Shown piece after piece: positions 1-59,199 of a stretch of DNA of 64,000 nt. The first letter of the stretch is position 1. The number at the start of each line of letters is the position of its first letter. The notes beneath the pieces are model-generated. The model was not told the origin of the DNA. It did not search any database and was given only the letters and a program-made list of their open reading frames with translations. The position numbers and the translations under genes were made by a program. Origin of the DNA: Acorus gramineus (lineage: Eukaryota; Streptophyta; Magnoliopsida; Acorales; Acoraceae). The stretch is taken from the NCBI GenBank assembly GCA_030737835.1, contig JAUJYN010000020.1, positions 1,922,001-1,986,000 on the forward strand, read 5' to 3'.

Positions 1-845
1 GGTTGGGTTGTCCCACTCACCGGAAGTCGGGTCGTCGCGCGACCGTCCGTCAAGATCTGCAAGACAGGGTATTAACTGGTGAGTAAAATCCACAAATACT
101 CCAAAATACACAAATAAATACCCAACACTCGGGCAAACGTACATACGACCCGTACGCACGCTAGCCCGAGCACCCCGACTCACTCCCGAACCCTCGGCAA
201 CCACCCGCATGGCCACCCGCCCCCGGATGCACCGCCGCGCCTCAGCCCGCGCACCCAGGCGCACCGCCGGGCCCCTGCCCGCACACCTGGACCTGCTGTC
301 GAGCCACCCGGGTGCACCGCGCGCCCACTGCGCCCCATCGCAGCAGCCCGCGTGCACCCCGCACACCCCGCGCTGGCCCACGAGCACACCGCACGCCCCG
401 CGCGCCCAGCACCTCGCCCCGCGCTCACCCCGCACGCACCTCTGCTGCCTCGCCGCGCTCCGCGCGCACCCCGCGCTCGCCCAGCACTCCATCAACTCGC
501 CGCGCGCGCACAGCGCGCCTGCGCCCCTGCGCAGCGCTCCGCGCGCGCCCCGCACGACGCCCTGCACGCATGCCTACCCGGCCAGCACCCCCAGCACGCC
601 CAGCGCATGCCCACTCGACCAGCACCCCCAGCACACTCACGCCCAGCGCCCAGCACGCGCGCCCTGCTGGCCTCCAGCTCCACCCGAGCGCACGCCCGCG
701 CGCACGCCCGCGCGCACGCACATGCGCGCCCTGCCAGCTGCTCCGCCTGCTGCGCCTGTGCTGCTACCTGTGCTGCTGCCTGCTACGCCTGCCTGCTGCC
801 ATCCTGCCCGGGACAGACCACCACCCTGTCCGAGCACCTCCACCT
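1..845 (-). mobile_element. Partial LTR, F-like family
   Basis: Minus-strand LTR piece cut by the window edge. Positions 21-56 match the short leader exon 3 of other copies (36 nt, acceptor-like cttgcag before it and gtgagtgg after it when read on the minus strand). About 150-840 is the CpG-dense GC tract of intron 2, seen here as CGCGCA-rich sequence. It resembles the LTR pair at 34544-41609 more than the neighbouring LTR. The piece ends near 845, where it switches abruptly to intron 3 sequence of another family, so this is a rearrangement boundary. The long open frames over the GC tract on both strands are compositional. Confidence 0.8.
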
Positions 846-3349
846 CTGATAGGTATAGCCAACGCCGGGGAGTTCCTACATCGGATCCAAACGAAGGGGA
901 GAACGATCCCATGTTGGCAAAGCGAAACCCAATGGAAAACAACCACTCTCGATACTCGCTCATCGAGATATCACACACATGCATATCAGCAACCAACACA
1001 CTCATATTAACCTCAAAGTAGTCATAGTCCCTAAACGGGAGTAACTACACAATCCAGTGGGTCGCTACATCGCCGACCCACCACACCCTCACCCTCACCC
1101 TCATAGGGTAACATGGTCTTTTGGGACTGACTAGGACGTTAATCACCCTTGGTCCACCGGTAGTCTCTCCTCCACTCTGTAGCTTACCTGGTATACTCCC
1201 ATGATCAGCACAGTCCGACGCATCGGAGGTACCTACAGATGGGAGCCCTCTGTCAGGACAGCCTGTCTAACGTCGGGGAGTCCCTACACGGATCCAACGA
1301 AGGGAAGAGAACAGCCTACCCACACGCATGCGATCCTCTTGGATCCGTCGACATCGCTTCCTAACATTTCTAATGTCATGAATTCTCAAGAATTCCTCCA
1401 GGGCGCATAACTAAGATGCGGGGAAACATATATTATAACAACAAGGTTATAATATTCTCTAAGGCATGCTTATCACAATATGCTCACATTTGATTTAAAA
1501 AAATTAAACTAAATGGGAACAAGCATGGGTCAAGGATTTCCTAGCATGAAACATGGTGTCAGGATGCATTTCCCTAGCATACAAGTCTAAGGTGGCATGG
1601 ATACATCATATTGATCATGCATAGATCAAAGCTTTTAAGTACAGGATATGGTGTCCAGGCATGTACGGGCCTCTATACACGATACATGGATGTATATCCC
1701 TAGCATGCAAAATATCTACATATTAGTTAGGGGGGGGGCATCGATGCGCGACGCGCGTCTATGTGGGTCGAGCGCATCCCTAGGGAGGGGGGGGGGGATT
1801 GGAATCAAACCACTCACCTTACGACCCGGGACCTTGCGCATCCCATCCGACGAGATCTGCAAGGAAGGGGCATCCAACTGGTGAGAAACAACACAATATG
1901 CACAAAGAAATTATTAGAAATACCCCATACTCGGACAAGCATGCATACGGGCTCGCACGCATGCGAGCACGCACGTACGCACACGAGTCCGAGTGCCCCG
2001 ACACCTACTCGAACACATGGGCAGCCACACGCATGGCCCCCCGCACGCGCACGCACGCACGCACCCCAGCACCATCGGCGCACTGCCGCGCGTCTGCCCG
2101 CGTGCACCTCGCGTCCAGCCCAGAGCGTACCCGCGCGCACTTCGCCCCCGCGCAGCACCCCGCGCACGCCCCAGCACGCGCACGCACGCGCGCGCGCGCA
2201 CTGGTCCCCTGCCCTGCGCCCAGGCACATGTCCAGGCGCACTGCCCCTGTGCGCGCACGCCGGCGCGCACTCGCGCGCGCACCCCCGCCCGCACCCCCGC
2301 TCGCGCCAACACCCGCGCGCACGTGCCCACGCGCATATGCGCACCCGACTGAGCGCTTGCCTGCACGCGCACGCGCGCAGACTGCGCCCAGCGCGCGCCC
2401 AGCCCGTCCTAACCTCATTTTTACCCTCCCCAACTCCTCACAAACACCCTAACCCATCTACCTAGCATGCATGACTTTCCCACAACCCCTTAAGCCATAA
2501 AAACCAAGAAAAGAAGGGGAGGAGCTCACCTTGGAGGGGGAACAAAAGGGGGAGGTTCGGGGGCCCTCGACGCACCCGCGGCCACCTCAACCGCCACCAC
2601 CACCACCACCACCTCCTCGCCCTCCTCAGCCCTCTATGGCTGCAATCAGTGGGGGGGGGGAAAGATCATGCAAGGGATCTTGAGAGAGAGAGGAACAAAC
2701 AACAACAACACATGGACAAAGTCTCACTTGCACTAGCACCTCCACCTTCTCTTCTCATTGAGACATTAAATCAAACACTTGGTGGGGCTTTGAAAAAAGA
2801 AAAGAGAGGACAAGAAAGCTAGTCGACGTGGGGATTTGGGAGGGGAGAGAGAGAGAGTGGAGATATTTATCACAAATATCTAAAGAGGGAAAGACTAAGT
2901 CGCCCTTTGACTAGAAATTCTGCGCAAGCTTCACTGGAACAGCCATAACTTCCTCGATACAGCTCCGAATTGCACAATTCGAATTCCATTGGAAAGCCAA
3001 GAGGATTATCTACAACTTTCATGTTTATGCCAAGATCCAATAATCCCTCTAGCTATTCCGCAATTAGAGCTAAACATGGAACAGGGCAGCTGCCAGAATT
3101 TCCCTCCCCGGGGTATACTTGGAAAAATACCCATAACTTTTACTACAAGAATCCAGTTGATCTAATTCCACTTCTGTACGAAAGCTAACTCAAAACTGGA
3201 CATCTCATAGTAAACTCATATTTAAACCTCTTCATCTTGGATTTTAACAAAATCAAATCCAAATACCAAATTGGAAATACATAATTTTAGGAAAAAAATT
3301 ATGTACCCAAATTTTCAAACAGAGCGCTCCAAATGACACAGGCACAACA
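846..3349 (-). mobile_element. Truncated LTR (O), E/H family
   Basis: Minus-strand LTR whose 5' terminus (tgttgtgcctgtgtcattt, read on the minus strand) lies at 3349. Going leftward it has the U3, exon 1 ending at about 2728, exon 2 at 2530-2639, the GC tract of intron 2 at about 1940-2420, exon 3 at 1818-1856 (39 nt), the post-exon hairpin at about 1743-1790, the EcoRI-type hairpin near 1380-1395, the ctccca/tgggag stem module near 1200-1250 and the G-rich tract near 1080-1110. Its distal end is missing at 846. At 3349 it abuts the truncated left LTR of element A with no spacer. Confidence 0.85.
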
Positions 3350-4504
3350 GACTTGGTCAATTGGTTTTGTTTGTTAGTGTGGTTGGGTTGACTAGGGTCA
3401 AAGTTCACTTAACCTAATTTTTATTCTAAGTGTAAGTGTCTGTGTGAGTGTGTGTGTGTGTGTGGCCCCTTAAGTGGGCGTGCACCCTCTCCTTCTCCTA
3501 TTCATCTTCTTCTCTCTCACTCACTCACAAATCTCTCAAACACTCTCTTTAAATCCATCATTTGATCTACTAGAGGTGCTTGAATTAAGAAGCCCTAGAA
3601 GAAGAAAAGGAAGGTGAGGACCCGATCTATCTTCCTATGGTCTCGGTTTCAATTTCCCCCTTGTTGACCTCCTCTCTTAGCTCCCTTTTCTCCTCTATTT
3701 TTCAGCCTTGCAAGGGCTGAGGGAGGTCTTGGTAGTGGTGGCTTTGGTGGTGGCGTTTCGGTGCGCGAAGAGCACCCGAAGTTCCCTCCTTTCCTTTCCA
3801 CCCTTGGGTAAGCTTTCCTCCCCCCCTAATTCTTGTTTAGATGCATGTTAGGATGTGTTTTTGAGTATGCATGGTATGCATGAGTGTTTGGGGTGTGGGA
3901 GGGCTGGGGGGGTGGTGCGGTGGGCTCGGGCGCGCGTGCGGATTCATCCGCGCGTGTGCGCGCGAGTCTGCGCGCGCAGGCAGTGCAGGTACGTGCAGTC
4001 GGGCGCGCTGGGGGCGTGCGAGCGTACGCGCGGACGTTTGGGCGTGCGCGCGGGCGTGGGCGCGGAGTGCTGCGCGGGGGCGCAGTGCGCGGGGTGCGCG
4101 CGGGGGTGCGCGTGTGGTGCTGCGCAGGGGCACAGTACGCGCGGGTAGACGCAGGGCTGGACGCGCGGTGCGTGCGGGCGCGCGCGGCAGCTTGTCTGGG
4201 CGCGCAGGCTGGGGCGCGGCAGCGCGCCCGGGGCAAGGGTGTGCGTGCGTGCGTGTGCACCCGTGCGTGCGCGTGCGGGTGGACGTGCGCATGGCTGCCC
4301 GGGGGTGCGGGAGTGTGTCGGGGCACTCGTACTCGTGTGCGTATGGGCCCGTATGCATGCTTGTCCTAGTGTTGGGTATGTAAAGCGTATTTCTTGTGTA
4401 ATTGTGTATTTTACTCACCATTTTGGTTTCCCATGTCTTGCAGATCTTGATGGGCGGTCACGCGACGACCCGGGTATTGGTGAGTGGGACAATCCAACTC
4501 AGCA

Positions 4505-4543
4505 GGGAGGCGTTCTATGCACGTAGGCGTGCATTGCCCTCCC
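4505..4543 (+). other. Conserved two-part hairpin HP1 (A, 5' LTR)
   Basis: Outer arms GGGAGG (4505-4510) and CCTCCC (4538-4543), inner arms ATGCAC (4517-4522) and GTGCAT (4529-4534), 6-nt apical loop. It starts about 25 nt after exon 3. The same fold with different arm sequences occurs in the other LTR families. Confidence 0.75.
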
Positions 4544-4850
4544 ATGGGGCACCATAATTGCGTATTAATTTGTAATAAGTGTAAGTTGTGCTATGCATGA
4601 TCATTATGTTGTATTCATGTCACCTTAGGCTTGTATGCTAGGAATATGCACCCTTGTGTTGTGGATAGAGGCCTATACATCCAGATACCATGTTTTCATG
4701 CTAGGAAAGCCTCGACCTACGCATGTTTCCCATTTAGTTTAATTTATTTAAATCAAATGCGAGCATATTGTTATTAGCATGCCTTAGAGAATATTATAAC
4801 CTCGTGGTTATAATATGTGTCTCCCCGCATCTTAGTTATGCGCCCTGGAG

Positions 4851-4866
4851 GAATTCTGAAGAATTC
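4851..4866 (+). other. Hairpin HP2, GAATTC-TGAA-GAATTC
   Basis: Six-bp arms around a TGAA loop, just after the conserved cgccctggag. Present in nearly every LTR copy with changing loop (TTGA, GTGT, AGGA) and, in the F pair, changed but still pairing arms. Confidence 0.7.
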
Positions 4867-5000
4867 ATGACATTAGTAGAGCTGCAATCGGTGTCGGCGG
4901 ATCCAAGAGGATCGCATCTGTGTGGGTAGGTTGTTTCTCTTCCCTTCGTTGGATCCGTGTAGGGACTCCTCAGCGTTAGACAGGCTGTCCTGACAGAGGG

Positions 5001-5050
5001 CTCCCATCTGTAGGTACCTCCGATGCGTCGGACTGTGCTGATCGTGGGAG
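5001..5050 (+). other. Stem module P1 in LTR intron 3
   Basis: CTCCCA (5001-5006) pairs with TGGGAG (5045-5050) and encloses about 38 nt that contain a small inner hairpin (CCGA/TCGG around 5020-5031). The module recurs one to three times in the third intron of each LTR family. A copy with different arms that still pair is at 36974-37029. Confidence 0.65.
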
Positions 5051-5146
5051 TAGACCAGGCAAGCTACGGAGTGGAGGAGAGGCTATCGGTGGGCCAAGGG
5101 TGATTAACAGCCTAGTCAGTCCCAAAAGACCATGTCACCGGCTTGA

Positions 5147-5190
5147 GGGTGAGGGTGAGGGTGTGGTGGGTCGGCAATGTAGCGACCCAC
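5147..5190 (+). other. G-quadruplex-type motif followed by hairpin HP3
   Basis: Four GGG runs (5147, 5153, 5159, 5168) with loops of 3, 3 and 6 nt meet the usual G4 pattern. GTGGGTCG (5166-5173) then pairs with CGACCCAC (5183-5190). Both are kept in most copies. The TGAGGG repeat is short and internal, so it is not a telomere. Confidence 0.65.
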
Positions 5191-5713
5191 TGGATTGTGT
5201 AGTTACTGCCACTTAGAGGCTATAATTTATTTGAGGTTAATATGAATTGTGATGCATGGGTTGTGCTATTCACTGAGCGTGTGGCTCACCCCTCGCATAT
5301 ATTTTTCTCTAGTTATATCTGAGTCGGATCTGAAGGAGGAGCTCCCCGAGGCACATCAGCAGTAGCGGAGCAGCGTCACGTTCTGCGTGTGAGAGGCCAT
5401 CAGCATCCCCCTTTGATTGTATGTATTGTATTCCGTGCTTAGGCACACGTTTGTATTACATTTGGATGTCATTGTATATATTGGCTCTCACAGGACAGTT
5501 GATTATGTATCGGGTCTGTAATATGTCTTTTGAATTACAGACTCAGTCTTTTAGCTTCCGCTATTTGTGTATATATTATGTCAGCCTCATTGTTGTCTGT
5601 GTTGTCATTTTGATGTTGTTTAGAGTATGTTATTGACCTCCTGTATAGACTGCTGATATCATATATACCATTGCCACGCCTCAAGGACAGCCGCCCTGGG
5701 GCGTGACAAAAGT

Positions 5714-5725
5714 TGGTATCAGAGC
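5714..5725 (+). other. Primer binding site, initiator Met tRNA
   Basis: TGGTATCAGAGC, five bases after the LTR end at 5708, is the usual plant LTR-element site complementary to the 3' end of initiator methionine tRNA. It marks where minus-strand DNA synthesis would start and fixes the left LTR edge. Confidence 0.95.
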
Positions 5726-5827
5726 CTGGTCCTGTCAGAGCCAATTGTTCTTTTTTCGTAGAGATGAGTCCTAGGATTTCTATATGAGTATTCTGATCCT
5801 AGTGTCTGGTTTTCTTAGGTTGCTGAT

Positions 5828-7080
5828 ATGCCTCCTCGCAGAGGAATGCGTGGACGTGGTCCCTCTCGACCTTTGGAGGTTCCCGGACCTACCAGAGGTG
5901 AGGATGCTACTGGAGAGTCCTCGGCTATGGGGCCAGGACTGGCGCAGGAGCCTCCTGCATGGGAGCGTGCTTACGCTCGGATAGCAGATCTGGTGGAGAC
6001 TCAGACCAGAGCATTAGAGGCCCAGACGAGGGCGTTAGCTGAGTAGGCTCGAGAGATTCAGGAGCTGAGGGCGATCCATGAGGCAGTTCCACAGGTCCCC
6101 TTGGTGGCAAATCCACCTGTGGTGCCCGACGTACCCCCTGTTCCCGTGGTGATTCCAGCGGTGGGAGTTCAGGATCCCCTGGAGAGGGAGGTGGAGCTGG
6201 AGGCTGTAGCGCGAGTGCATCAGAGTGGCCTCACTGCCTTTCTGAAGCTCCACCCTCCCGAGTTCCATGGACAGACGACGGACCCCCTTGCCCCTGAGCG
6301 ATGGTTGATGGAGGTGGACAAGATCTTCTCGACCATGCACTGCACCGATCGCCAGCGTGTCTCCCTGGCCACCTTCATGCTGAAGGGTAGCGCCGCCGAC
6401 TGGTGGGCTACCCGATCGGTGGACATTCCCGAGGGAGTGGAGCGGCTTTTATGGGTGGTTCCGGAGGTATTTCCTGGAGGAGTACTTCCCATTTTCGACG
6501 TGCCAGATCGTGATGCGGGAGTTTGAGCAGCTGACGCAGGGCTCCATGTCAGTCGCGGACTACTCTACGCGCTTCACGAGGCTTTCTAGGTTCGCCCCAG
6601 CCTTGGTGATGGATGAGGAGACGCGGTGCCGTCGTTTCAAGATGGGTCTCATCAGCACCATTCGGGTGCATGTCTCTTCTCAGGCGTTTACGAGGTACTC
6701 GGACTTGGTGTCTCGGGCAAAGACAGTCGAGCGAGACCTCGGGGCCTCCATGGGGATTCCAACCCCTTCTGCAGACCAGAGACCTCCCAGGAGCCAGGAC
6801 CAGGGACAGCGCAAGAAGAAGCGGCCCCGCTTTGATCAGACAGCGGCTGCCGCTACTCCAGTCGATGTGGTGCCAGTGCGAGGTCCAGCACCCATTGCAG
6901 CAGTACCAGTCCAGTCCAGGCGATCGGAGACGCGGCGCTGCTACCATTGTGAGCCCATCGGGCATATTTTATATAATTGCCATGACGCTGGCCGACCCCG
7001 CGTGCTGCCTCCACAGCAGCAGCAGCAGCTACACCAGCAGCCGTACCAACAGCAGCAGCCTCAACGCCAGCAGTAGCGGC
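5828..7080 (+). pseudogene. gag region of element A (fossil)
   Basis: Gag forms the capsid and nucleocapsid that package element RNA. The region starts with an MPPRRG-type N terminus at 5828, about 100 nt after the primer site, continues through a capsid-like segment (FLKLHPPEFHG and WWATRSV are recognisable) and ends with a CCHC zinc knuckle, CYHCEPIGHILYNC, at 6939-6980, followed by a Gln-rich tail. The knuckle spacing (CX2CX4HX4C) is canonical. Only traces of the gene remain readable and it is broken in more than one place. Family assignment is firm; function is lost. Confidence 0.88.
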
Positions 7081-7217
7081 AACCTCAGCGTCGGTAGCAG
7101 TAGCCACAGGGTGGTCGTGTTGACCAGAGGAGGCAGCCAGTGCAGCCTACGAGGCGTGCCCCTGCTCCTCAGCCGCAGTTTGTTCAGGGCTGAGTTGCAG
7201 CACTTTCGGTCGAGGAG

Positions 7218-10200
7218 GTGCAGGCTTCGGGTATCGTGGTCCGAGGTATTGTTCAGATCTCCCAGCTCCCTGCATATGTGTTATTTGATTCCGGAGCCAC
7301 GCACTCGTTCGTGTCTCCCGCTTTCGCGAGACGGACGGGCGTGGCGTCCGCCCCTCTTGATGTTATCCTGGTGATATCATTGCCTGTCGGAGACTGTATT
7401 CTCCTCCGTTCTGTTTACCGAGGGTGTACCGTGGTGATTGCGGAGCATGAGTTTCCAGTGGAGTTGGTAGAGCTCGCCATGACAGATTCGATGCCATCCT
7501 GGGAATGGATTGGCTTTCAGCTAGTCACGCCAGCATCGACTGTTTTGCCAAGTCGGTGTCTTTCCACCTTCCGGGTCGGAGGTCCTTCCAGTTCGTGGGC
7601 GATCGTGACATAGCCCCTTTGGGGTTCGTGTCGTCCATCCAGGCGTGGAGACTCCTTCAGGGAGGATGCGAGGGCTTTCTGGAGTATATTGCTGAGGAGG
7701 ACGCACCGCTGCGGGCAGATATCAGTCAGACCCCGATCGTGGCAGAGTATCCCAAGGTTTTCCCCGATGATCTTTCGGGATTACCGCCGGATCGCGCGAT
7801 CGAGTTTGAGATAAATCTGATTCCGGGGACCGAGCCGATTTTGAGAGCTCCGTACCGGATGGCCCCAGCAGAGCTGAAGGTGCTCAAGGAGCAGTTGGAG
7901 GAGTTGCTAGAGAAGGGCTTCGCACGTCCGAGTGTTTCTCTGTGGGGAGCCCCTGTTCTATTCGTCCAAAAGAAGGGCGGTTCGCTGCGGCTTTGTATTG
8001 ATTACAGGCAGCTGAACAAGCGGACCGTGAAGAACAAGTACTCCTCACCACAGATTGACGATCTGTTTGACCAGCTCCAGGGAGCGCGTGTCTTTTCTAA
8101 GATCGATCTCCGTTCGGGCTACTATCAGCTGAAGATCCGGGAGTCAGACATTCCGAAGACGGCCTTTCGTACCCGTTATGGGCACTACGAGTTCAGAGTA
8201 CTGCCGTTTGGGTTGACGAATGCGCCGGCAGCCTTCATGGATCTGATGAACCGGGTGTTTTGGCCCTTCCTCGACTCCTTCGTAGTAGTCTTCATCGATG
8301 ATATTCTGGTGTACTCGAGGAGTCTTGAGGAGCACGCTCATCATCTCCGCACTGTCTTGGAGACTTTGGCCCGACATCAGTTGTTCGCCAAGTTCAGTAA
8401 GTGCGAGTTTTGGTTGGAGCGTATGGCCTTTCTGGGCCACGTGATTTCCGGTGAGGGCATATCTGTGGACCCGGACAAGACGCTCGCCGTGTCGAATTGG
8501 CGTCGACCGTCGAACCCCACAGAGATTCGGAGCTTCCTGGGCTTGGCGGGTTATTACAGGAGGTTTGTCGAGGGTTTCTCGAAGATAGCTGTTCCTCTTA
8601 CCCGCCTCACTTGGAAGGATGTCCGGTTCGAGTGGTCCCCGGCTTGCGAGGAGAGCTTCCTGGAGTTGAAGCGAAGGCTCACCTCAGCGCCAGTTCTTAC
8701 CCTTCCGTCTGGGAGTGGTGGGTTCGCAGTTTACTCCGATGCATCGCGGTTGGGTGTGGGTTGTGTCCTGATGTAGCACGGTAAGGTTGTGGCTTACGCG
8801 TCGCGTCAGTTGAAGCCCCATGAGCAGAATTACCCCACCCACGACTTAGAGTTAGCAGCGATCATCTTTGCGCTGAAGATGTGGAGGCACTACCTCTATG
8901 GCGAGGAGTTTGAGCTCTTTACTGATCATAAGAGCTTGACATATTTGCAGTCCCAGCTGGAGCTCAACATGCGTCAGAGACGTTGGGTCGAGTTTCTGAA
9001 GGACTATGATTGTGACATCGCTTACCATCCGGGTAAGGCGAATGTCGTGGCGGATGCTCTCAGCAGGCAGCCCTTGGGCATGGCCGCCCACATGGCTGTA
9101 CGTCGTTGGAGGCTTCTGGAGGAGGCCGCTTGCTGGATCAGCGTTCGAGAGACTCCTGCGGGTGGCTTTTTGGCTAGGCTAGTGGTGCAGCCCATTCTTC
9201 TCGACAAGATCCGCACGGCACAGGGACAGGATCCTCACTTTCTAGTCCTCTCTGAAGGCGTCGCCCGGGGCGAGCGTCCGGACTACCAAATTCGCGAGGA
9301 CGGGATCCTGCGGTTCAGAGGTCGAGTATGCATTCCTGACGACGCAGAGCTGAAGCAGAAGATCTTGGACGAGGCCCATCGTTCGAGGTACACAATGCAT
9401 CCTGGTGGCACGAAGATGTACAGGGGCCTTCGTCGTGGCTACTGGTGGCGCGGGATGAAGACGGATATTGCCCGTTTCGTTGCCCGTTGCTTGGTATGCC
9501 AGCAGGTGAAGTCGGAGCATCAGCGCCTGCGGGGAAGCTGCAGTCCATTGAGATTCCTCAGTGGAAGTGGGAGCAGATCACCATGGACTTCGTTTTGGGT
9601 TTGCCGAGGTCACGTTCGGGTCGCGATGCCATCTGGGTAATCGTCGACCGACTGACGAAGTCCGCTCATTTCCTCCCCATCCGACTCACCGATTCTCTGG
9701 ACACCCTGGCGCAGTTGTTTGTCTCCGAGATTGTTCGTCTCCATGGCACTCCCGTCAGCATCATTTCTGATCGAGACGCGCGATTTACTTCGAGGTTCTG
9801 GCGTAGCCTCCAGCACGCCCTTGGTACGAACCTCCACTTCAGTACAGCGTTTCATCAGCAGACAGACGGCCAGTCAGGAGGACGATTCAGACCCTGGAGG
9901 ACATGCTGCGAGCTTGCATTCTCGACTTTGGGGGCAGTTGGGAGAGGCATCTTCCGTTGGTGGAGTTTGCCTACAACAACAGCTACCACTCGAGTATCAG
10001 GATGGCTCCATACGAGGCACTTTATGGCCGCAGCTGCAGGTCCCCCTTGTGTTGGGACGAGGTCGGAGAGCGCCAGTTGGAGGGACCAGAGATCATCCAC
10101 CATACCTCAGAGATGGTCAAGACGATTCGTGAGCGTATCCGAGTCGCTCAGAGCCGTCAGAAGAGCTACGCCGATCGTCGTCGCCGTGAGCTCGTCTTCG

Positions 10201-10621
10201 AGGTTGGTGACCATGTCTTCCTGAAGGTGTCCCCGATGAAGGGCATCTTCCGTTTCGGTGTGCGGGGCAAGCTGAGTCCGCGTTTCATTGGGCCGTTCCT
10301 CATCCTCGAGCGAGTTGGGGAGGTGGCCTATCACATCGCTCCCCCACAGTTGGCTCAGGCCCATGACGTCTTCCATGTCTCGCAGTTGAGGCGTTATGTC
10401 CACGATCCTGCTCACGTCATTCCGTTCGAGCCGCTCGTCTTCGAGCCGGACTTGTCATTCGTGGAGCAGCCGATCGAGATCCTGGACCGTCGCGAGAAGA
10501 GGCTCCGCACCAAGACCGTCCAGTTGGTCAAGGTGCGATGGCAGCACCGTTCCGGTGCCGAGGCCACTTGGGAGCTCGAGGACGCCATGCGTGACGCGTA
10601 TCCGCATCTTTTCCCTTCCTA
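7218..10621 (+). pseudogene. pol region of element A: PR-RT-RH-IN-chromodomain (fossil)
   Basis: Pol supplies the enzymes for copying and inserting the element. In order: an aspartic protease motif DSG at 7287-7295; reverse transcriptase about 7730-8480 with the palm motif FIDD at 8291-8302; RNase H about 8700-9060 with SDAS near 8735 and TDHKS near 8921; an integrase zinc-binding part about 9370-9510; the integrase core about 9580-9990 ([29 protein letters not shown]); and a C-terminal chromodomain about 10480-10615 (VRWQ and ATWELE are typical). The chromodomain is thought to steer insertion to heterochromatin, which fits the nested surroundings. Several breaks are present, so this is a fossil. 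Confidence 0.92.
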
Positions 10622-10657
10622 GATGTTTTTGTATTTATTTTGAGGACAAAATTTCCT

Positions 10658-10670: not shown

Positions 10671-10916
10671 TGTTATATATGTGTCACTTTTAGCCTTCTG
10701 GTCACCATTGGAGCATTCTGGCAGTTTTTCAACTTTTTCTTTTTTCGATCGGAACCGCTAAAATTTTGGACTTTTGCTATCATCATGAGCTTGAGAACTC
10801 CGATTGAAAATCTAACTGCATATTATGTGTCCTGGTGCCATTTCAAGCCACTCACAAAAATTTCATCGAATTCCGATAACGTTTCAGAATTTCGCAGTTC
10901 CGAATCGTATCCGGGT

Positions 10917-11046
10917 TTTGACCAAGCGAAAAGTCATTGGGAGACTTGACCAAGTCAAAGATGACTTTGACCAAGTCAAGTTTGACCCTTGACTTGGTCA
11001 ATTGGTTTTGTTTGTTAGTGTGGTTGGGTTGACTAGGGTCAAAGTT
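10917..11046 (+). promoter_or_regulatory. W-box-rich promoter segment of the LTR
   Basis: By eye I count about ten TTGAC[C/T] cores on the two strands within 130 bp, several in repeated gaccaagtcaa units. TTGACC/T is the WRKY-factor W-box. The cluster lies just upstream of the (TG)n and pyrimidine-rich stretch before exon 1, where a U3 promoter should be. It suggests a wound- or defence-responsive promoter (inference). Similar clusters occur at 46724-46840 and, on the minus strand, at 59228-59341 and 63650-63770. Confidence 0.6.
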
Positions 11047-12102
11047 CACTTAAACCTAATTTTTTTTCTAAGTGTGAGTGTGTGTGTGTGCGTGTGTGTG
11101 TGGCCCCTTAACTGGGCGTGCACCCTCTCCTTCTCCTATTCATCTTCTTCTCTCTCACACACTCACAAATCTCTCAACCCATCTCTTTAAATCCATCATT
11201 TGATCTAGTAGACGTGCTTGAATTAAGAAGCCCTAGAAGGTGAGGACCCGATCTATCTTCCTATGGTCTCGGTTTCGATTTCCCCCCTGTTGACATCCTC
11301 TCTTAGCTCCCTTTTCTCCTCTGTTTTTCAGCCTTGCTAGGGCTGAGGGAGGTCTTGGTATTGGTGGCTTTGGTAGTGGCGTTTCGGTGCGCGAAGAGCA
11401 CCCGATCTTCCCTCCTTTCCTTTCCTTCCTTGGGTAAGCTTTCCTCCCCCCCTAATTCTTGTTTAGATGCATGTCAGGATGTGTTATTGAGTATGCATGG
11501 TATGCATGAGTGTTTGGGGTGTGGGAGGGCTGAGGGGGTTGGTGGGATGGGCTCGGGCGCGCGTGCGGATCATCCGCGCGTCTGCGCGCGCAGGCAGTGC
11601 AGGCGCGTGCAGTCGAGCACGCTGGGGGCGTGCGCGCGTACGCGCCGACGCGCAGGCGTGCGCGAGGAGTGTTGCGCGAGGGCGCAGTGCGCAGGATGCG
11701 CGCAGGGGTGCGCGCGGGGTGCTGCGCAGGGGCGTAGTACGCGAGGGTAGACGCAGGGCTGGACGCGCGGTGCGCGCACGCGCGACAGCGTGTCTGGGCG
11801 CGCGGGCTGGGGTGCGGTAGTGCGCCTGGGGCGCGGGTGTGCGTGCGTGCGTGCGCACCCGTGCGTGCGCGTGCGGGTGGCCGTGCGCATGGCTGCCCGG
11901 GGGTGTGGGAGTGTGTCGGGGCACTCGGACTCGCGTGCGTACGGGCCCGTATGCATGCTTGTCCGAGTGTTGGGTATTTCTAGCGTATTTCTTGTGTATT
12001 TGTGTATTTTACTCACCATTTTGGTTTCCCATGTCTTGCAGATCTTGACGGGCGGTCACGCGACGACCCGGGTATTGGTGAGTGGGACAATCCAACCCAG
12101 CA

Positions 12103-12141
12103 GGGAGGCGTTCGATGCACGTAGGTGTGCATTGCCCTCCC
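12103..12141 (+). other. Hairpin HP1 (A, 3' LTR)
   Basis: GGGAGG (12103-12108) pairs with CCTCCC (12136-12141); ATGCAC (12115-12120) pairs with GTGCAT (12127-12132). Same position relative to exon 3 as in the left LTR. Confidence 0.75.
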
Positions 12142-13306
12142 CTGGGGCACCATAATTGCGTATTAATTTGTAATAAGTGTAATCTGTGCTATGCATGATC
12201 ATTATATTGTATCCATGCCACCTTAGGCTTGTATGCTAGGAATATGCACCCTTATGTTGTGGATAGAGGCCTATACATCCTGATACCATGTTTTCATGCT
12301 AGGAAAGCCTCGACCTACGCATGCTTCCCATTTAGTTTAATTTATTTAAATCAAATGCGAGCTTATGGTTATTAGCATGCCTTAGAGAATATTATAACCT
12401 CGTGGTTATAATATATGCTTCCCCGCATCTTAGTTATGCGCCCTAGAGGAATTCTGAAGAATTCATGACATTAGTAGAGCTACAAACGGTGTCGGCGGAT
12501 CCAAGAGGATCGTATCCGTGTGGGTAGGCTGTTTCTCTTCCCTTCGTTGGATCTGTGTAGAGACTCCTCAGCGTTAGACAGGCCGTCTTGACAGAGGGAT
12601 CCTATCTGTAGGTACCTCCGATGTGTCGGACTGTGTTGATCGTGGGAGTAGACCAGGCGAGCGACGGAGTGGGGAAGAGGTTATCGGTGGACCTAGGGTG
12701 ATTAACAGCCTAGTCAGTCCCAATAGACCATGTCACCAGCTTGAGGGTGAGGGTGAGGGTGTGGTGGGTCGGCCATGTAGCGACCCACTGGATTGTGTAG
12801 TTACTGCCACTTAGAGGCTATAATTTATTTGAGGTTAATATGAATTGTGATGCATGGGTTGTGATATTCACTGAGCGTGTGGCTCACCCCTCGCATATAT
12901 TTTTCTCCAGTTATATCTGAGTCGGATCTGAAGGAGGAGATCCCCGAGGCACATCAGCAGTAGCGGAGCAGCGTCACGTTCTGCGTGTGAGAGGCCATTA
13001 GCATCCCCTTTTGATTGTATGTATTGTATTCCGTGCTTGGGCACACACTTGTATTACATTTGGATGTCATTGTATATATTGGCTCTCACAGGATAGTTGA
13101 TTATGTATCGGGTCTGTAATATGTCTTTTGAATTACAGACTCAATCTTTTAGCTTCCGCTATTTGTGTATATATTATGTCAGCCTCATTATTGTTTGTTT
13201 TGTCATTTTGATGTTGTTTAGAGTATATTATTGACCTCCTATATAGACTGCTGATATCATATATGCCATTGCCGCGCCTCGGGGACGGCCGCCCTGGGGC
13301 GTGACA

Positions 13307-18139: not shown

Positions 18140-21100
18140 TGTTATGCCTGTGTCATTTGGAGCCATTTCGGTTAAGCCTTGGTCGCATCTGGGTCATTCA
18201 GGGCCTTTTTCTTTTTCGATCGGAGTCGCTAAAATTTTAGCTTTTAGCCATCTGCGGGAGTTAGGGTACTCTGATTGGAAATCTAACTGCATATTATGGG
18301 TCCTGGTACCATTTTGTACTACCCATAAAAATTTCATCGAATTCCGGTAACGTTTTGAAAAATATGCAGTTCTGAATCGTATCCGGGTTTTGAGAGTTCC
18401 TGGTTGGTCGAATAGTGTGAGATATTTTGGGGATGTGGTGACCTTTGGTAACCTTACCCCCACCTTGCTTGGGGAGGAAGAAACCATTGGTTATTTGATT
18501 TGTGAGTGGGTGAGCCTAACCCTAACCTCACACCCCCCTTAAGGTCACCCCTAGGCACTATTTGGGCATGAAAATAACATTTTTGCCCTCTCTCTCCCCC
18601 CCCCCTCTCTCCCATTTCGTGGTACACTTTCCCTCCCTCTCTTATGGCTCTCTTTCGCCCCAAGTGTTTGATTTTATGCCAAGGAGAAGAAGATGGAGCA
18701 AGAAGAGGAGGTGCAAGTGCATGAAGGTGAGTTTTGTGCCTTTGTTGTTGTTGTTGATTCCCCTCTCTCTAGCTCCCTTTTTATGCCCTTCTCTCCTCTG
18801 TTTTTCAGCCAAGAAGGGCTGGTGGAGAGGCTGAAGAGGAGGTGTGGTGGTGGTGGTGGTTGAGGTGGCCGTGGGCGCATCGAGAGCCCCGCATCTCCCC
18901 CTTTCCCTTTCCCTCTTTTGGTAAGTCCTCTTCCCCTTCTTTTTTATTTTTAGGGCTGTTGGGATGGTTGGGGAGGTCATGCATGCTAGGTAGATGGGTT
19001 AGAGTGTGTGTGAGGGGTTGGGGAGGGGTTAAAAGGTGCTGGGCGCGCGCGCAGACGCACATGCAGAGGGGCCCTGGTAGGCGCAGGCGGGCGCGTGCGC
19101 TTGCGCGCGGGTGCGCGCGGAGCGGGCGCATGGGTGCGTGCGGATGCTGGCAGCGAGCGGGGTGCGCGCAGGGCGTGCGCGCGAGTGCGCGCGAGCGCGC
19201 GGGGCAGGTTGTCTGGGCGGGTCTGGGCACGCGGCTGGGTGCCAGTGAGCGCGGGCGCGTGCTGGGGCATGCGCGGGGCTGCCCAGGGTCTCGGGTAGGT
19301 GCTGGGGCACTTGGGCATGCGTGCATACGCGCATGCTCGCATGCGTGCGAGCCCGTATGCGTGCATGTCTAAGTCTTAGGCATTTCTAGTAATTTCTAAG
19401 TGTTATAATGTGTTGTTACTCACCAAATTTGATGCCCTTACCTTGCAGATCTCGTCGGATGGGATGCGCGAGGTCCCGGGTTGAGGTGAGTGGTTTGGTC
19501 CAATCCCCCCCCTCTTGAGATGCGCTCGACGCGCGTAGTCGTGCGTCACGCATCGATGGGGCGTCCTAGCTATACTACTTGTGTAGATAAGTAGTATGAC
19601 CATGCTTAGACTATAATATGTTAGATATCTTGCATGCTAGGCTTATATTACATGTATTGTGTCCATGTATGAATGATTGTGTTGCATGCGCCCCTCTAGT
19701 ATGGGCATGTATTGTTGTAATGTGTATTGATGTATAGAATATGGCATGCCTTAGGTAGTATTGTAATACTACTCCCATCATATTAATTGGAATATCCAAC
19801 ATGATTAAGTCTGGGTTATTAACGGGCTGCCTAATATTCCCTTGCGATAAGACTCGAGGGCGTGGTGTAGTTGTTGCACCCATGCTAATGGGGCAAAGCT
19901 ATGACCGACTTCATGAGATGATGATCTCTCTCACCCTCTCCCTCTACATGAACTGAGTAAGTAGATGCGATTTCCTACTCAACTCATGTTCGTTTGGAAT
20001 ATTGGCATGCACCTGTTAGTGCGCGAGATCGCGCTTGACCCTTACCTTTTAAGTTTGTGATATCCAACACATGCTTAAGTTAGGCCTTGTGTGCTTATGT
20101 GATTAATGACCATATATGCATGTTGTATGATTTATTATGATGTAAATCTATGATTAGGGAGTATCCCTATGATTAATTGATATGTGATCGTGCATATGGT
20201 TCATGCACATAACTAAGATTAATTTCTCCTATAAAATATATGCACATGTTAAAACTAATTAGGTCTATCTGAAATAGGCGTGGGTATGACCCGTTGTCGA
20301 GTTGCATCTTATTAGTCAGAGCGCTAGCGATGTAATCACCCCCGTGCATCCGAGCGATGCACTCGTTTGGAATTTTGGAGAATTCATTATCTTATCGGTT
20401 TTGTTAAAACCGGTAGTTGTGGCATTAAGCTAGGCCTACCCGTGCTAGGCGTGTATATGAACTGTTATGCCTGTGTCATTTGGAGCCATTTCGGTTAAGC
20501 TTTGGTCACATCTGGGTCATTCAGGGCCTTTTCTATTTTTTGATCGGAGTTGCTAAAATTTTGGCTTTTAGCCACCTATGGGAGTTAGAGCACTCTGATT
20601 GGAAATCTAACTGCATATTATGGGTGCTGGTACCGTTTAGTACTGCCCATAAAAATTTCATCGAATTCCGGTAACGTTTTGAAAAATATGCAGTTCCAAA
20701 TCGCATCCGGGTTTGGTCGTTACTGGGTTTCGGTGGGCGAGATATTTTTGAGTGTATGGTGCGTACGAGCGTGCGCGTGAGTGGGGCAGGTTCTCTGGGC
20801 GGGCCTGGGCATGCGGCAGGGTGCCAGTGCGCGCGCGCGTGCGTGCGCGTGCGTGCGCATGCTGGGGCATGCGCGGGGCTACCCAGGGGCTCGAGTAGGT
20901 GCTGGGGCACTTGGGCATGCGTGCGTACGCGCGTGCTCGCATGCGTGCGAGCCCGTATGCGTGCATGTCTAAGTCTTTGGTAATTCTAGTGATTTCTAAG
21001 TGTTAAATTATGATGTTACTCACCAAATTTGATGCCCTTACCTTGCAGATCTCGTCGGATGGGATGCGCGAGGTCCCGGGTTATGGTGAGTGGTTTGATC

Positions 21101-25369: not shown

Positions 25370-27924
25370 ACGTCTCTCCCTCTCCCTCTCTGTTTTTGTG
25401 TGTGTGTGTGTGTTGTTGAAGAAGGAAAAGAAGAAGAAGAAGCACAAGAGAGAGTCCAAGAAGGTGAGTGTGTGTGTGTTGTTGTTGTTTCTCTTCTCTC
25501 TGTCTCCCTCTCACGACCCCCTTTAACCCCCCTGTTTTCAGCCAAGAAAGGCTTGAGGAGATGCTGATGAGGTTGTGGTAGTGGTGGTTGAGGTGGTCGT
25601 GGGTGTGTCGAGAGCCCCGCATCTCCCCATTTCCCTCCCCCTCTTTTGGTAAGGCAGATCTCTGTCTTCTAAAGATCTCTGTGAAACTAGTATTTAGAAG
25701 CATATTTTCAGGATTGTGTCCCATATGATATGATCATCTATTTGTCTAGATGTTATATATGAAATTTGGTGTCATTATGATACCTATGTTGTGAGTTAGA
25801 ACCTGTTTTGCATGACCTGTCTACATTCGCATGTGAATTGACCTGCTTCTGGAAATATTTTATTTTGGGTTTGTAGAGGCTTAATTAGGGTATGATGTCT
25901 TCTCGGATTATGATCCCAACATGTCATAGAATAGGTATGATATATTTCATAATTTTTGGATGTGTATTTGGTGTTGTGGAGATCAAATAGTAGGGCTGGT
26001 TGCAGCAGGTTTAGCAGTTTTGCTCGATTGTGTGTCAAGGAGTTGTTGTGCATGTTGTGGAAACTATCAAGAGTTAGGTAGTATTTGTTTGAAGTACTCA
26101 CCCCCTTTTGATGCCCTTGCCTTGTAGATCTTGTCGGTTGGATGCGCGACGGCCCCGGTATTGGTGAGTGGTTCGATCCAACCCTTCGGAAAGCGTTGGA
26201 TGCACGTAGTCGTGCGTCGCGCATCCATTGGGCACCCTGATTATACTACCTATTTAGATAAGTAGTATGGTCATGTCTAACAAACAATATGCTAGATATT
26301 TGCATGATAGGTTTGTATAGCTCGTATATTGCATAGAACCCCCTTTTCTACCATATACTAGCCTATGTATTATATTCGTGTATGAATGATTGTGTTTTCT
26401 TGCACCTTCTTGTTTGGACATGTATTTCATATGAGTCTTATGGATGTATAGAATATGGCATGCCTTAGGTAGTCCCTTCTAGTAATACTACCCTATTATT
26501 AGTAATATCCAGCATGATTAAGCCTGGGTTAATAAACGGGCACATGCCTAAGACTTGAGGGCATGGTGTAGTAGTTGCGCCCATGCTAATGGGGCAAAGC
26601 TATGACCAACTTCTTGAGATGATGAGCTCTCTCTCGCCCTCTCTCTTTGTACGAACTGAGTAAGTAGATGCGGTTCCTACTTGACTCAAGTTCGTTTGAA
26701 AATATTGGCATGTACCTGTTAGTGCGCGAGATCGCACTGGACCCTTCCCTTTTTAAGTTGGTGATATCCAACGCATGTTAGAGTATATTTTGTATGTTTA
26801 TATGATTAGTGCCCTTATATGCATGTGTAGTTAGGCCTTGCCTTGTATGTATGTTGTATGATGTGTTGTTTATGCCATATACTCATGTTAGGGAGAAACA
26901 CCCTGTAGTAATCATATGTTATTGTGCATGTGGATCAAGTTCCTTTGGTGATATAATTCTCCTGTAACATATAATCGAAAGTTAAAACTGATTAGGTGTT
27001 ATGCCTGTGTCATTTGGAGCCTTATTTTTTTATCGGAGTCGCTAAAATTTTGGGTTTTAGCCACCTACAGGAGTTGGAGTGCTCTGATTGAAAATTTGGC
27101 TACATAATTTTTCTCCTAGAAGTTATGCATTTCCGATTTGGTATTTGGATTTGATTTTGTTAAAATCCAAGATTAAGAGGTTTAAATATGATTTTATCAT
27201 GAGATGTTCAGTTTTGAGTTAGCTTTCATACAAAAGTGGAATTAGATCAACTGGATTCATGTAGTAAAAGTTATGGGTATTTTTCCAAGTATACCCCGGG
27301 GATGAGAAAATTCTGGCAGCAGCCCTGTTCAATGTTTATCTCTCATTTCGGAATAGCTGGAGGGGTTATTTAATCTGAGCATAAACATGAAAGTTGTAGA
27401 TAATCTTCTTGGCTTTCCAGTGGACTTTGAATTGTGCAATTCGGAGCTATATTGAGGAAGTTATGGCTGTTCTAGTGAAGCATGTACAGAATTTCGGGTC
27501 ATGGACGATTTTTGTCCTTTGAACCCCACTTTGTCTATATAATGTCCTCCCCCCAAATGTCTCCTCTCTCACTCTCTTTGGTCCAGCCCTCTTGAGGTGT
27601 TTGGTAGAGTTTTAGAAGGGGAAGATGGGGAAGAAGTGCTTGGAAGAGCAAAGAAGAGAAGCAAGAAGAAGAGGAATGAAGGCTGAAGTGGTGTTAGTGG
27701 TGGTGGTGGTCGAGGTGGTCATGGGCGTGCTTGCGAGCTCCCACACCTCCCCCTTCCCTTTCCCCTTCTCTTGGGGTGCCTGCGTGCCCGTGTGTCTGCT
27801 GCCCTGTGTGTGCTGCCTGTGCCCAGCTTGCTCTGTCTGCTGCCCTGCCAGCACCAGCACTCATGCCCAGCAGCTGTGCCCAGCGGCTGTGCCCAGCATG
27901 CCCTGCCTGCTGCCCTGCCAGCAC

Positions 27925-28215
27925 CTGCGTCTGTGCCCAGCGCGCCCTGCGCCTGTGCCCAGCGTGCCCTGCGGCGTGCCCTGCGTCTGTGCCCAGCGCG
28001 TCCTGCGCCTGTGCCCAGTGCGTCCTGCGATGTTCCCTGCGACTGTGCCCAGCGCGCCCAGCGACTGTGCCCAGTGCGTCCTGCGATGTTCCCTGCGCCT
28101 GTGCTCAATGCGTCCTGCGATGTTCCCTACGACTGCGCCCAGCGAGCCTAGCGACTGTGCCCAGTGCGTCCTGCGACGTTCCCTGCGACTGTGCCCAGCG
28201 CGCCTTGCCCTGCCT
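27925..28215 (+). repeat. Minisatellite in LTR C2 intron 2
   Basis: Imperfect tandem copies built from tgtgcccagcgcgtcctgcg and gatgttccctgcgac blocks, in a higher unit of roughly 50-60 bp. The open frames across it are a by-product of the period and composition. Confidence 0.75.
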
Positions 28216-28347
28216 GTGCAACCCGAGTGCTGCCCCGCGTGTGCGTGCCTCCCTCTGCATGCGTGCTGCCCCGCTTGCCCTGCTCGCGTGCTGCCTCACG
28301 ATGCGCGATGACCCGGGTTGCGGTGAGTGGTTCGATCCAACCCTTTG

Positions 28348-28385
28348 GGATGCGCTCGATGCACGTAGTGGTGCATCACGCATCC
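28348..28385 (+). other. Hairpin HP1 (C2)
   Basis: GGATGCG (28348-28354) pairs with CGCATCC (28379-28385) and ATGCAC (28359-28364) with GTGCAT (28371-28376). The outer arms differ completely from those of A and F but hold the same place and shape. Confidence 0.78.
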
Positions 28386-31300
28386 ATGGGGCTTCTTTGG
28401 ACCCTAAATATGCTAGATATTTTCATGCTAGGATTGTATAGCTCGTATATTGCGTAGAACCCCCCTTTTCTACCATATACTTGCCCATGTATCATAATCA
28501 TGTGTGAATTATTATGTATGCTTGCGCCCTTCAAGTATGGGCATGTGTGATGTGTTTGTATGGATGTATAGAATAGGGCATGCCTTAGGTAGTATTGTAA
28601 TACTACTCCTACCATATTAATTGGACTATCCAGCATGATCAAGTCTGGGTTAATAACGGGCACCTGCCTAATATTCCCTTGCGATAAGACTCGAGGGAGT
28701 GGTGTACTTGTTGCGCCCATGCTATGACCAACTTCAAGAGATGATGATCTCTCTCTCGCCCTCTCCCTCTGCACGAACTGAGTAAGTAGAGGCGATTTCC
28801 TACTCGACTCAGGTTCGTTTGGAATATTGGCATGCACCTGTTAGTGCGCGAGATCGCGCTTGACCCTTCCCTTTTAAGTTGGTGATATCCAACGCATGCT
28901 TAAGTTAGGCCTTGTGTGCTTATGTGATTAATGGCCATGTATGTATGTTATATGATTTATTATGATGTAAATCCATGTTAGGGAGTATCCCTATAATTAT
29001 TTGATAGGTTATCGTGCATGTAGTTCATGTACACAACTAAGATATAAGTCTCCTCGATATATATATGCGCATGTTAAGACTGATTAGGCCTATCTGAAAT
29101 AGGCATGGGTATGACCCGTTGTTGGGTTGTACCTTATTAGTTGGAGCGCTAGCGATGTAATCGCCCCCGTGCATCCAAGCGATGCACTCGTTTGGAATTC
29201 AGGAGAATTCATTATCTTATCGGTTTTGTTAAGCCGATAGTTGTGGCATTAAGCTAGGCCTACTCGTGATAGGCGTGTATATGAACCGCCTATTGGGCTA
29301 TGTGCCTTGGGATTATTTCTGCGTGAGAGCAGAGGCAAACCCCCTTGTGACCGAGCAACGCAACCGTGTGGGAGTGCAATACTATTCGATATCATCGATA
29401 TGTGATTATCGAGGGTAGTTATCGTTCCATTGGGTTCACTTTGCGAACATGGAGTGTTTCTTCCCAATGTCATCTGTGTTGAAACGGCCCGGGTTGTAGC
29501 TGTCCTGACAGAGAGCTCCCATCCGTAGGTACCACCGATGCGTTCGGAAGCGTACTGATCGAGGGAATATACCAGGTAGAGGCTACCCGGGAAAGGGCTA
29601 ACGAATGATATAGCGAGCGTGAAATCGTTCTCCCCTTCGTTGGATCCGATGTAGGAACTCCCCGGCGTTGGAAAAGCTGTCCTGACAGAGGGCTCCCATC
29701 CGTAGGTACCACCGATGCGTTCGGAAGCGTACTGATCGTGGGAGTATACTAGGTAGAGGCTACGTGGGGAAAGGGCTACCGGTGGACCAAGGGTGTAGAG
29801 CAGTCTAAGTCTCTTCCAAAAGTCCTATGTCACCTCTAAAGGGTGAGGGTGAGGATGAGGTGAAGACACGTTGCCACGTGACCCATTCGTTGTTCATCCA
29901 TTCCCATAGTTGTTGGGTCCGGTTGCGTATCGATGTTCAAAGACATCGTTGGGCAGTTATCCCGATGTAGATGATCCAGTAGCGTTGTGTAGACCAGTAA
30001 TTCCGGGTCTCTTCGACCAACGGTATGGTGTCTCCCCAAGAGACCCAAGAGTCTCCCTCCGGGAGTGAGGGTGAGAGTGAGGTTGGTGATTCAGTAGTGT
30101 TGTGTGGACCAGTAATTCTGCATCTCTTCGACCAACGGTATGGTCTCTCCCCAAAAGTCCCAAGAGTCTTCCTCCAGGAGTGAGGGTGAGGGTGAGGTTG
30201 GTCGCGCCGCCGCGTGACCTTGTTATCCATTGGGTTTCTACCCATGTTTTTCCTTGAAAGGAAATTGTTTTAGTATTGAACTGTTGTATGGTGATTGGTT
30301 TCCAGCCACTCACTAAGCTTGTAGCTCACCCCTCGCATACTGTTTCTTTTTAGGGGCAGTGTTGGGCGTGGAGCTGGAGCTTCCCTGTGGCGTGGTCTTA
30401 TGGGCGTGGAGCGTTCTTCCGGCGGGTGGCGAGTGCGAGGCTGTCAGCAGTCCTAGAGTAATTTTATGTATTGTAAATCGTGCATGTGGCACATGTTGTA
30501 TTTTATTTGGACTAGGCTTGGCTCTCACAGGACAGTGATTGTGTATTCGAGTCTATAATAATGTTTTTGGTTTACAGACATTGTTAATAACTTATGCTTC
30601 CGCTTTGCAATCAGTTATCATTATCTTTGCTTTTCCACCACCTTGTGTGTTGTTGATGGAGTCTTTGTTGACCTCAGGTATTGATAACTGATATTTCCTT
30701 ATTGCCACATCTCGGGGACGGCCGCCCTGGGGCGTGACATTTGGCCTATCTGAAATAGGCATGGGTATTGTTATGCCTGTGTCATTTGGAGCCATTTCGG
30801 TTAAGCCTTGGTCGCATCTAGGTCATTCAGGGCCTTTTTCTTTTTCGATCGGAGTCGCTAAAATTTTAGCTTTTAGCCACCTGCAGGAGTTAGGGTACTC
30901 TGATTGGAAATCTAACTGCATATTATGGGTCCTGGTACCATTTTTTACTACCCAAAAAAATTTCATCGAATTCCGGTAACGTTTTGAAAAATGTGCAGTT
31001 CCGAATCGTATCCGGGTTTTCGAGAGTTCCTGGTTTGATTAGTCAAATAGTGTGAGATATTTTGGTGAATGTGGTGACCTTGGGTAACCTTACCCCCCTT
31101 TGCTTAGAAGTGAAGCAACCACTTGGTTATTTTGCTTGTTAGAGGGTGAGAATAGGTTAGGTTCACCCCCACATTTTTCCATTACACTCAACCCCCCCAT
31201 GTGAGAAAAAGTCTCACTCTCTCTCCCTCTCCCACTCCCTACGTGGACTTCTCTTTGGCTCTCTTTCTCTCTTTCACACACACCCCCCATGTGTTTGTTG

Positions 31301-34807: not shown

Positions 34808-34815
34808 TATAAATA
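34808..34815 (+). promoter_or_regulatory. TATA box of LTR F1
   Basis: TATAAATA, about 265 bp into the LTR, followed by a pyrimidine-rich start region (34857-34890). Transcription would start near 34840, placing all predicted exons downstream. The twin is at 38604-38611. Confidence 0.75.
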
Positions 34816-49944: not shown

Positions 49945-49988
<44 letters not shown>

Positions 49989-59165: not shown

Positions 59166-59166
59166 G

Positions 59167-59193: not shown

Positions 59194-59199
<6 letters not shown>

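Follow-up and report, generated by a model that had tools for sequence, protein, structure and literature searches.

BARE1 is a member of the Ty1/copia superfamily, and the intron of Ogre is located in gag-pol. In plant LTR elements such as Ogre and EVADE, functional introns in the transcripts give rise to subgenomic RNAs (PMC12786077). BARE1 has distinct RNA pools, one of capped, polyadenylated and partly spliced mRNA and the other of RNA for packaging (PMC3735527). The sunflower elements Tyran and Varan produce unspliced genomic RNA beside spliced short-gag isoforms, and Tekay elements are absent from the expressed set of sunflower (PMC7730604).

Splicing has also been reported for chromovirus-derived sequences. 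Full-length cDNAs of CRM4TR, the maize centromeric chromovirus-derived repeats, are polyadenylated and show splicing in the UTR and, in one case, in the LTR, with 5' ends 18, 40 and 43 nt downstream of the TATA box (PMC3648361). CRM gives back-spliced reads and a few normally spliced reads, and the accessible portion of the report describes no LTR leader introns (PMC7010299). No mention of splicing or introns was found in PMC3059260. In foamy virus, an animal retrovirus, the major splice donor is within R of the LTR and precedes the poly(A) signal. This donor is needed for gag expression; U1 snRNP on this donor suppresses polyadenylation in the 5' LTR (PMC3694450).

Here, we describe related LTRs with up to three candidate introns in a fixed order, all inside the LTR. 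They are found in a 64-kb stretch of DNA, hereafter the window. They resemble CRM4TR in being chromovirus LTR and UTR sequence with (putative) LTR splicing. Unlike them, CRM4TR consists of CRM-derived tandem repeats and not of intact LTRs, and shows one LTR splice in one cDNA, against three ordered candidate introns across families (PMC3648361). Foamy virus differs in having one donor, and no complete LTR introns are reported in the accessible part of PMC3694450. BARE1 is similar to what is proposed below as a plant LTR element with separate RNA pools, but its 104-nt intron is outside the LTR, immediately after gag (PMC3735527). The intron of EVADE removes the protease region, and neither Ogre nor EVADE is described as having a multi-intron LTR leader in the sections available (PMC12786077). 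The isoforms of Tyran and Varan alter the gag and RT-RH frames (PMC7730604).

A preliminary description of this DNA, which took the LTRs to be of the Tekay/Del type, knew of no described multi-intron leader lying wholly inside such an LTR. For the general kind this is too strong, since chromovirus-derived LTR splicing was reported for CRM4TR (PMC3648361). A word search of the open-licence literature did not find a multi-intron leader inside an LTR. As far as the accessible portions of these sources go, no compared system has three complete introns inside the LTR, and the arrangement would be new if the splicing is real.

A Nest of Chromovirus LTRs

Self-comparison of the window shows a nest of related Ty3/gypsy LTRs. 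One element, element A, has both LTRs and an internal region. Its parts are as follows.

3350..5708, + strand: 5' LTR of element A (A5); the first ~320 bp are absent; all six splice-like sites are present, checked by letters
5714..5726, + strand: primer-binding site TGGTATCAGAGCC, downstream of the 5' LTR
5819..5830, + strand: predicted start of the gag exon, acceptor TCTGGTTTTCTTAG/GTTGCTGATATG (here and below, the slash marks the splice boundary), gag ATG at 5828
6384..10622, + strand: broken gag-pol with domain matches to gag, PR, RT, RNase H, IN, SH3 and a weak chromodomain
10671..13306, + strand: 3' LTR of element A (A3), ends TGTTATAT...GGGGCGTGACA; pairs with the 3350-5708 fragment at 92.5%

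The sequence TGGTATCAGAGCC at 5714 is what we take to be a primer-binding site of the Met type. The domain matches include gag (8.7e-12), RVT_1 (7.9e-35), Integrase_H2C2 (9.9e-19) and SH3_Tf2-1 (7.3e-23), and the matches to rve (23.7 bits, cut-off 32.6) and Chromo (20.9 bits, cut-off 25.1) are below threshold. The domains of element A follow the chromovirus order: RT, RNase H and integrase, then an SH3-like domain and a chromodomain at the integrase end. Among the best 120 of 8000 matches, protein relatives are 47-74% identical, and the named ones are mostly from flowering plants; none of these 120 bears a clade name such as Tekay. The LTR termini are TG...CA (TGTTAT...GTGACA). Target duplications of 5 bp flank element C (TTTTT) and LTR F (GTTAT); none was found at some of the LTRs tried, such as the nested 20463-23380. 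The LTRs of the window are those of Ty3/gypsy chromoviruses.

Splice-Like Sites of LTR A

The six motifs are all found in LTR A where the preliminary description had placed them. In A3 they are donor 1 AAG/GTGAGG at 11240, acceptor 1 TTTTTCAG/ at 11331, donor 2 TGG/GTAAGC at 11434, acceptor 2 CTTGCAG/ at 12041, donor 3 TTG/GTGAGTGG at 12078 and acceptor 3 TTTTTCTCCAG/ at 12910. The counterparts in A5 are donors 3614, 3808 and 4480 and acceptors 3705, 4443 and 5312. If they act as splice sites, A3 is divided as follows.

11133..11239, + strand: putative exon 1 (start approximate), pyrimidine-rich, with more purine near donor 1; no ATG
11240..11331, + strand: putative intron 1, GTGAGG...TTTTTCAG, 92 nt, 40% T
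11332..11433, + strand: putative exon 2; no ATG
11434..12041, + strand: putative intron 2, GTAAGC...CTTGCAG, 608 nt, 66% GC
12042..12077, + strand: putative exon 3, 36 nt
12078..12910, + strand: putative intron 3, GTGAGT...TTTTTCTCCAG, 833 nt
12911..13306, + strand: putative exon 4 to the LTR end, with U/GU-rich stretches

The U/GU-rich stretches of exon 4 may be the poly(A) region. A branch-like motif, TACTCACC, is seen in intron 2 about 30 nt upstream of acceptor 2. Intron 3 of A contains a module of ~230 bp (12536-12766), which is common to other LTRs and is tandem in some; it occurs one to three times per LTR (12536-12766, 15341-16213, 51603-52423). Its copy number accounts for part of the variation in intron length. 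Intron 3 has the lengths previously given: 833 nt in A, 1243 nt in the LTRs starting at 34544 and 38340, and 1730 nt in the LTR starting at 49465. A conserved RNA fold of the module is unconvincing (15 copies, double changes at 7 of 38 pairs, covariation term -0.97), and a search of Rfam gave no match at gathering scores.

Recurrence across LTR Copies

The family letters used here are our own and need not match those of the preliminary description. Profile searches with short blocks around the motifs detected 14 E1, 16 E2, 18 E3 and 16 E4 homologous copies, on both strands of the window. Several of the copies are listed below.

843..3349, − strand: LTR B1 (partial); donors 1817, 2529 and 2727 rank 1, 3 and 5 of 202 GTs
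18140..20462, + strand: LTR H (first part); donors 18727, 19486 and 18921 rank 1, 2 and 3 of 174 GTs
27500..30739, + strand: LTR M; exon 1 nearly abuts exon 2 at 27555-27773; donor 2 and acceptor 2 lost, donor 3 kept
30769..33697, + strand: LTR K (partial); donors 31355, 31557 and 32159 rank 1, 2 and 3 of 239 GTs
34544..41609, + strand: element C with two LTRs (34544-37798 and 38340-41609); TATA box CTATAAATA; intron 1 absent, introns 2 and 3 kept; exons without ATG
49465..53182, + strand: LTR N, 3718 bp; donor 3 ranks 1 of 313 and donor 1 ranks 12; donor 2 lost; intron 3 of 1730 nt
55126..61023, − strand: start of element P; LTR 61023-59605 and 57007-55250, split by LTR F; then the 5' UTR, with TCTTAG/GTTGCTAACATG before gag
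57008..59604, − strand: solo LTR F; 5-bp duplication GTTAT; donors 59025 and 58820 rank 1 and 2 of 211 GTs; donor 3 is ATGAGT

Donor 1 is present with a score of at least 6.4 in 12 of 14 copies (9 of 14 by an automated scan of ±25 nt, 3 placed by eye), and acceptor 1 is CAG/CC in 11 of 16. Donor 2 is GTRAG in 13 of 16 copies, and acceptor 2 is YAG in 16 of 18 (15 by regular expression, 1 from the alignment). Donor 3 is GTGAGT in 16 of 18, and acceptor 3 is YAG in 14 of 16, one of the remaining two being cut off. GT donors and YAG acceptors with pyrimidine tracts are ordered on one strand, all six in A5 and A3 and fewer elsewhere. The claim that the same ordered motifs recur across families and on both strands holds, except that not every family has every site: C5/C3, G and M lack intron 1, and in L it has decayed; F and P have AT in place of the donor-3 GT, and N has an altered donor 2. 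The length of exon 3 is 36-39 nt across copies, as had been noted.

Two of these copies deserve a comment on their structure. The 3.25-kb LTRs of element C are 96.5% alike around only 541 bp, with TTTTT on both sides. Element C is a deletion derivative, which either was still able to move or became shorter at a later stage. LTR N (region 48307-53182) is preceded by a pol tail and by the GGGAAGAA stretch that is also seen in A, so it is likely the 3' LTR of another element.

Relatives were also sought outside the window. Viral contigs contained no relatives by protein and three pattern matches, without further LTR homology. Genome contigs contained five loci with Ty3-type RT (L004-L008). None of these eight outside loci, three viral and five genomic, is matched by any LTR block below E 0.02. 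The RTs of L004-L008 lie in five bacterial genome assemblies, with 48-65% identity, and L008 is in a 1.16-Mb contig. They are probably foreign DNA.

Donor Strength and Conservation of the Sites

The recurrence itself could be explained in another way. The motifs might be conserved promoter, enhancer or packaging elements, in DNA or RNA, that only resemble splice sites, with no splicing involved. Both the strength and the conservation of the sites bear on this reading.

Donors were scored with an approximate plant donor matrix. Of the 2558 sense GTs in 12 LTRs, 18 reach at least 8, and 15 of these 18 are among the 29 proposed donors, which leave out the lost sites (donor 2 in N and donor 3 in both F and P). 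The enrichment (p 6e-29) is descriptive only, because the matrix is approximate, the preliminary description had fixed the sites beforehand, lost sites are omitted and the copies are related. Strong donor-like GTs are also found on the antisense strand, as expected if the motifs are not splice sites: 12 of 973 score at least 8, a higher share than the 18 of 2558 in sense. Ten of the 12 are in the conserved 3' end of intron 2. The GT counts themselves, 2558 on the transcribed strand and 973 on the other, are strongly skewed by strand.

Donor 1 behaves differently from a conserved element, as it retains splice strength without retaining its sequence. It is variable in both sequence and setting (AAG/GTGAGG, GTATGT, GTGAGT, GTTAGT, GTGTGT) yet strong, and only 2 of 11 LTRs align to A3 around it. 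The polarity and order of the sites, the pyrimidine tracts and the YAG also agree with one strand, which counts against this reading.

In a column test, for which one or two near-duplicate rows were left out per block, acceptor 2 and donor 3 have mean pairwise identities of 0.90 and 0.95, compared with 0.67 in the other columns of the block (p = 2e-4). The signal of donor 2 is weaker (0.83 against 0.56, block p 0.08). Donor 1, acceptor 1 and acceptor 3 gave no signal in this test, in part because MAFFT put these sites in different columns. Pairwise comparison of sites with flanks gave 0.61 and 0.61 for donor and acceptor cores against 0.68 for flanks; several acceptor coordinates were wrong and the global alignment misplaced the sites, and the values are used neither way.

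It had been claimed that the exons stay alignable while the introns change. The alignments do not bear this out. An E1, E2, E3 or E4 base is aligned to A3 in 2.0, 3.5, 9.8 or 3.0 of 11 LTRs, respectively, and a base of introns 1, 2 or 3 in 2.3, 6.2 or 5.4. More families align over introns 2 and 3 than over exons 1, 2 and 4; only exon 3 aligns across a larger number of them. Identity to A3 is 0.70-0.78 in exons and 0.75-0.81 in introns. Conservation similar to that of the sites extends to U3, the intron-3 module and the LTR end, which is in line with conserved elements unrelated to splicing. So is the finding that GGTGAGTGG has complementary copies, TACTCACC and CCACTCAC, elsewhere in the LTRs.

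These copies are close to acceptors. ACTCACC (12011-12017, before acceptor 2) is the reverse complement of part of donor 3 GGTGAGTGG (12077-12085). CCACTCAC (13378-13385, before acceptor 3 of another LTR) is likewise the reverse complement of part of it. Pairing between donor 3 and these copies might matter.

Paired Loss of Sites and an Intron-1-Less Copy

It also speaks against conserved elements without splicing that introns 1 and 2 lose donor and acceptor in pairs. With A5/A3, C5/C3 and P/Q merged, copies lacking one of the two regions left out and families taken as independent, both sites of intron 1 are kept in nine families and both lost in four (C, G, M and L; Fisher p = 0.0014), and for intron 2 both are kept in nine, both lost in two (M and G) and the donor alone lost in one (N; p = 0.045). 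Intron 3 has no paired loss: F and P lost donor 3 and keep acceptor 3. Donor-1 strength and paired loss are less open than the p-values to bias from relatedness and the prior choice of sites: donor 1 is strong even though its surroundings hardly align, and donor and acceptor go together.

Copy M has no recognisable intron between exon 1 and exon 2. When exons 1 and 2 of other copies were compared with M after and before splicing in silico, the spliced form matched better in five of the seven tried: P (124/107), Q (113/96), N (96/84), K (119/113) and I (80/74). No gain was seen for H (85/86) and B1 (59/59). The junction in M is blurred over ~10 nt by GAAGAA purine repeats. Copy M may be derived from reverse-transcribed spliced RNA or from a deletion. 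A search for further spliced-junction copies with eight spliced LTRs gave no crossing match for A3, N, F and C5, and one for H, two for K, four for I and two for P. One each of those of K and P is copy M; the remaining matches, either short or due to misplaced exon ends, were disregarded.

Paired loss, the intron-1-less copy and the ranking of the donors favour genuine introns, as judged from the sequence. Elements that only resemble splice sites are an improbable explanation.

Composition, Upstream ATGs and the Junction to Gag

Exon 1 starts CT-rich, and its last 45 nt are 56-89% purine in the nine LTRs measured. Intron 1 is 35-50% T against 22-32% T in exons; the enrichment in U was not seen in introns 2 (19-39% T) and 3 (28-30% T). 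These T counts and the ATG counts below are slightly off for K, I and P, of which the acceptor coordinates are 1-15 nt out.

The exons of A3, D, F and C5 (250-407 nt) contain no ATG, where shuffling gives 3.5-4.9, and their scored introns hold 13-41 ATGs. The exons of A5 hold one ATG, in exon 3. The depletion was not seen in H, K, I, N, B1 and P (3-9 observed against 3.0-4.3 expected), of which N is behind a pol tail. An AUG-free leader is thus not general. In element A, the unspliced leader has 46 ATGs upstream of gag. Removal of the three LTR introns leaves 10, of which 9 are downstream of acceptor 3.

A coding function of the spliced exons would be a different interpretation, in which splicing produces a small basic accessory protein across exons 1 and 2 from Arg/Lys-rich frames as in H and K. 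Read by eye, an exon-1 ATG in H and K is followed by a run of AGG/AGA/AAG codons, open into exon 2. Against this, A3, D, F and C5 lack exon ATGs, the frames of N, B1 and L stop after about 15, 3 and 3 codons (also by eye), and the length of exon 3 differs by single bases. Such a protein is very hard to credit and was rejected, as the frame is not conserved.

Between the primer-binding site and gag, element A has acceptors at 5761 (score 11.4) and 5818 (score 8.5), the latter 9 nt upstream of the gag AUG. Element P keeps the acceptor at 5818, TCTTAG/GTTGCTGATATG, in the form TCTTAG/GTTGCTAACATG, but not the stronger one at 5761. No strong donor was found between acceptor 3 and gag in A, the best being 5.6 at 5419.

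These observations bear on a further alternative. The spliced unit could be a short non-coding RNA inside one LTR, with promoter, four exons and poly(A), made from solo LTRs as well and having no role in gag-pol. Every part is within the LTR, the solo LTR F retains all parts except donor 3, and in A exon 4 is followed by U-rich stretches and nine ATGs before gag, all consistent with such an RNA. Sites in solo LTRs say little, however, because solo LTRs arise by recombination. A non-coding RNA leaves unexplained the gag-side acceptor kept in A and P and the lack of exon ATGs in A3, C5, D and F. We consider it rather unlikely.

Proposed Model

The LTRs of these chromoviruses probably carry a spliced, multi-intron untranslated leader, with some transcripts spliced as mRNA and others left unspliced as the genome. 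Transcription would start ~300-500 nt from the beginning of the LTR. The transcript would contain three spliceosomal introns (only two in some families), placed entirely within the LTR, and four exons (about 105-150 nt, 102-116 nt, 36-39 nt and exon 4) would form a short untranslated leader. Of the four-exon untranslated leader in the preliminary description, the ordered motifs and the location in the LTR are real; the leader itself can be proposed only conditionally, and exon 4 runs through nine upstream ATGs to gag in A. Because exon 4 as drawn passes these ATGs, the joining of exon 3 or exon 4 to an acceptor just before gag is more likely.

A portion of the transcripts would be spliced to give mRNA. 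In element A, donor 3 (or a donor in exon 4) could be joined to acceptor 5818, nine nt before the gag AUG. The junction to 5819 is predicted because the acceptor at 5818 is kept in P and that at 5761 is not. It would take out the upstream AUGs together with the primer-binding site and the 5' LTR's poly(A) region. In A-type copies, the first AUG of the spliced leader would be that of gag; A5 itself has the one ATG in exon 3. Unspliced transcripts would retain R, U5, the primer-binding site and the introns, and would be reverse transcribed, so that the introns persist in new copies. From the retroviral cycle, and not as a result obtained here, the reverse-transcribed RNA must be mostly unspliced, because the LTRs of new copies contain the introns.

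It can be tentatively speculated that a chromovirus lineage has a multi-intron leader wholly in the LTR, and that splicing from the LTR to gag splits a translatable mRNA from the unspliced genome. In A-type copies this mRNA would have no upstream AUG and no primer-binding site, and the poly(A) region of the 5' LTR would be removed. The LTR would then be an inherited splicing cassette. This wider reading, also drawn from sequence comparison, is possible rather than probable.

The model bears on how plant LTR elements have gag translated past kilobase-long AUG-rich leaders, how polyadenylation in the 5' LTR is avoided, and how genomic RNA and mRNA are separated. If LTRs carry their own spliced leader, the exact junctions can be sought in existing RNA-seq data. 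The variation of LTR length in such families would then be partly variation of intron length, and host transcripts driven by these LTRs could start with ready first exons and strong donors.
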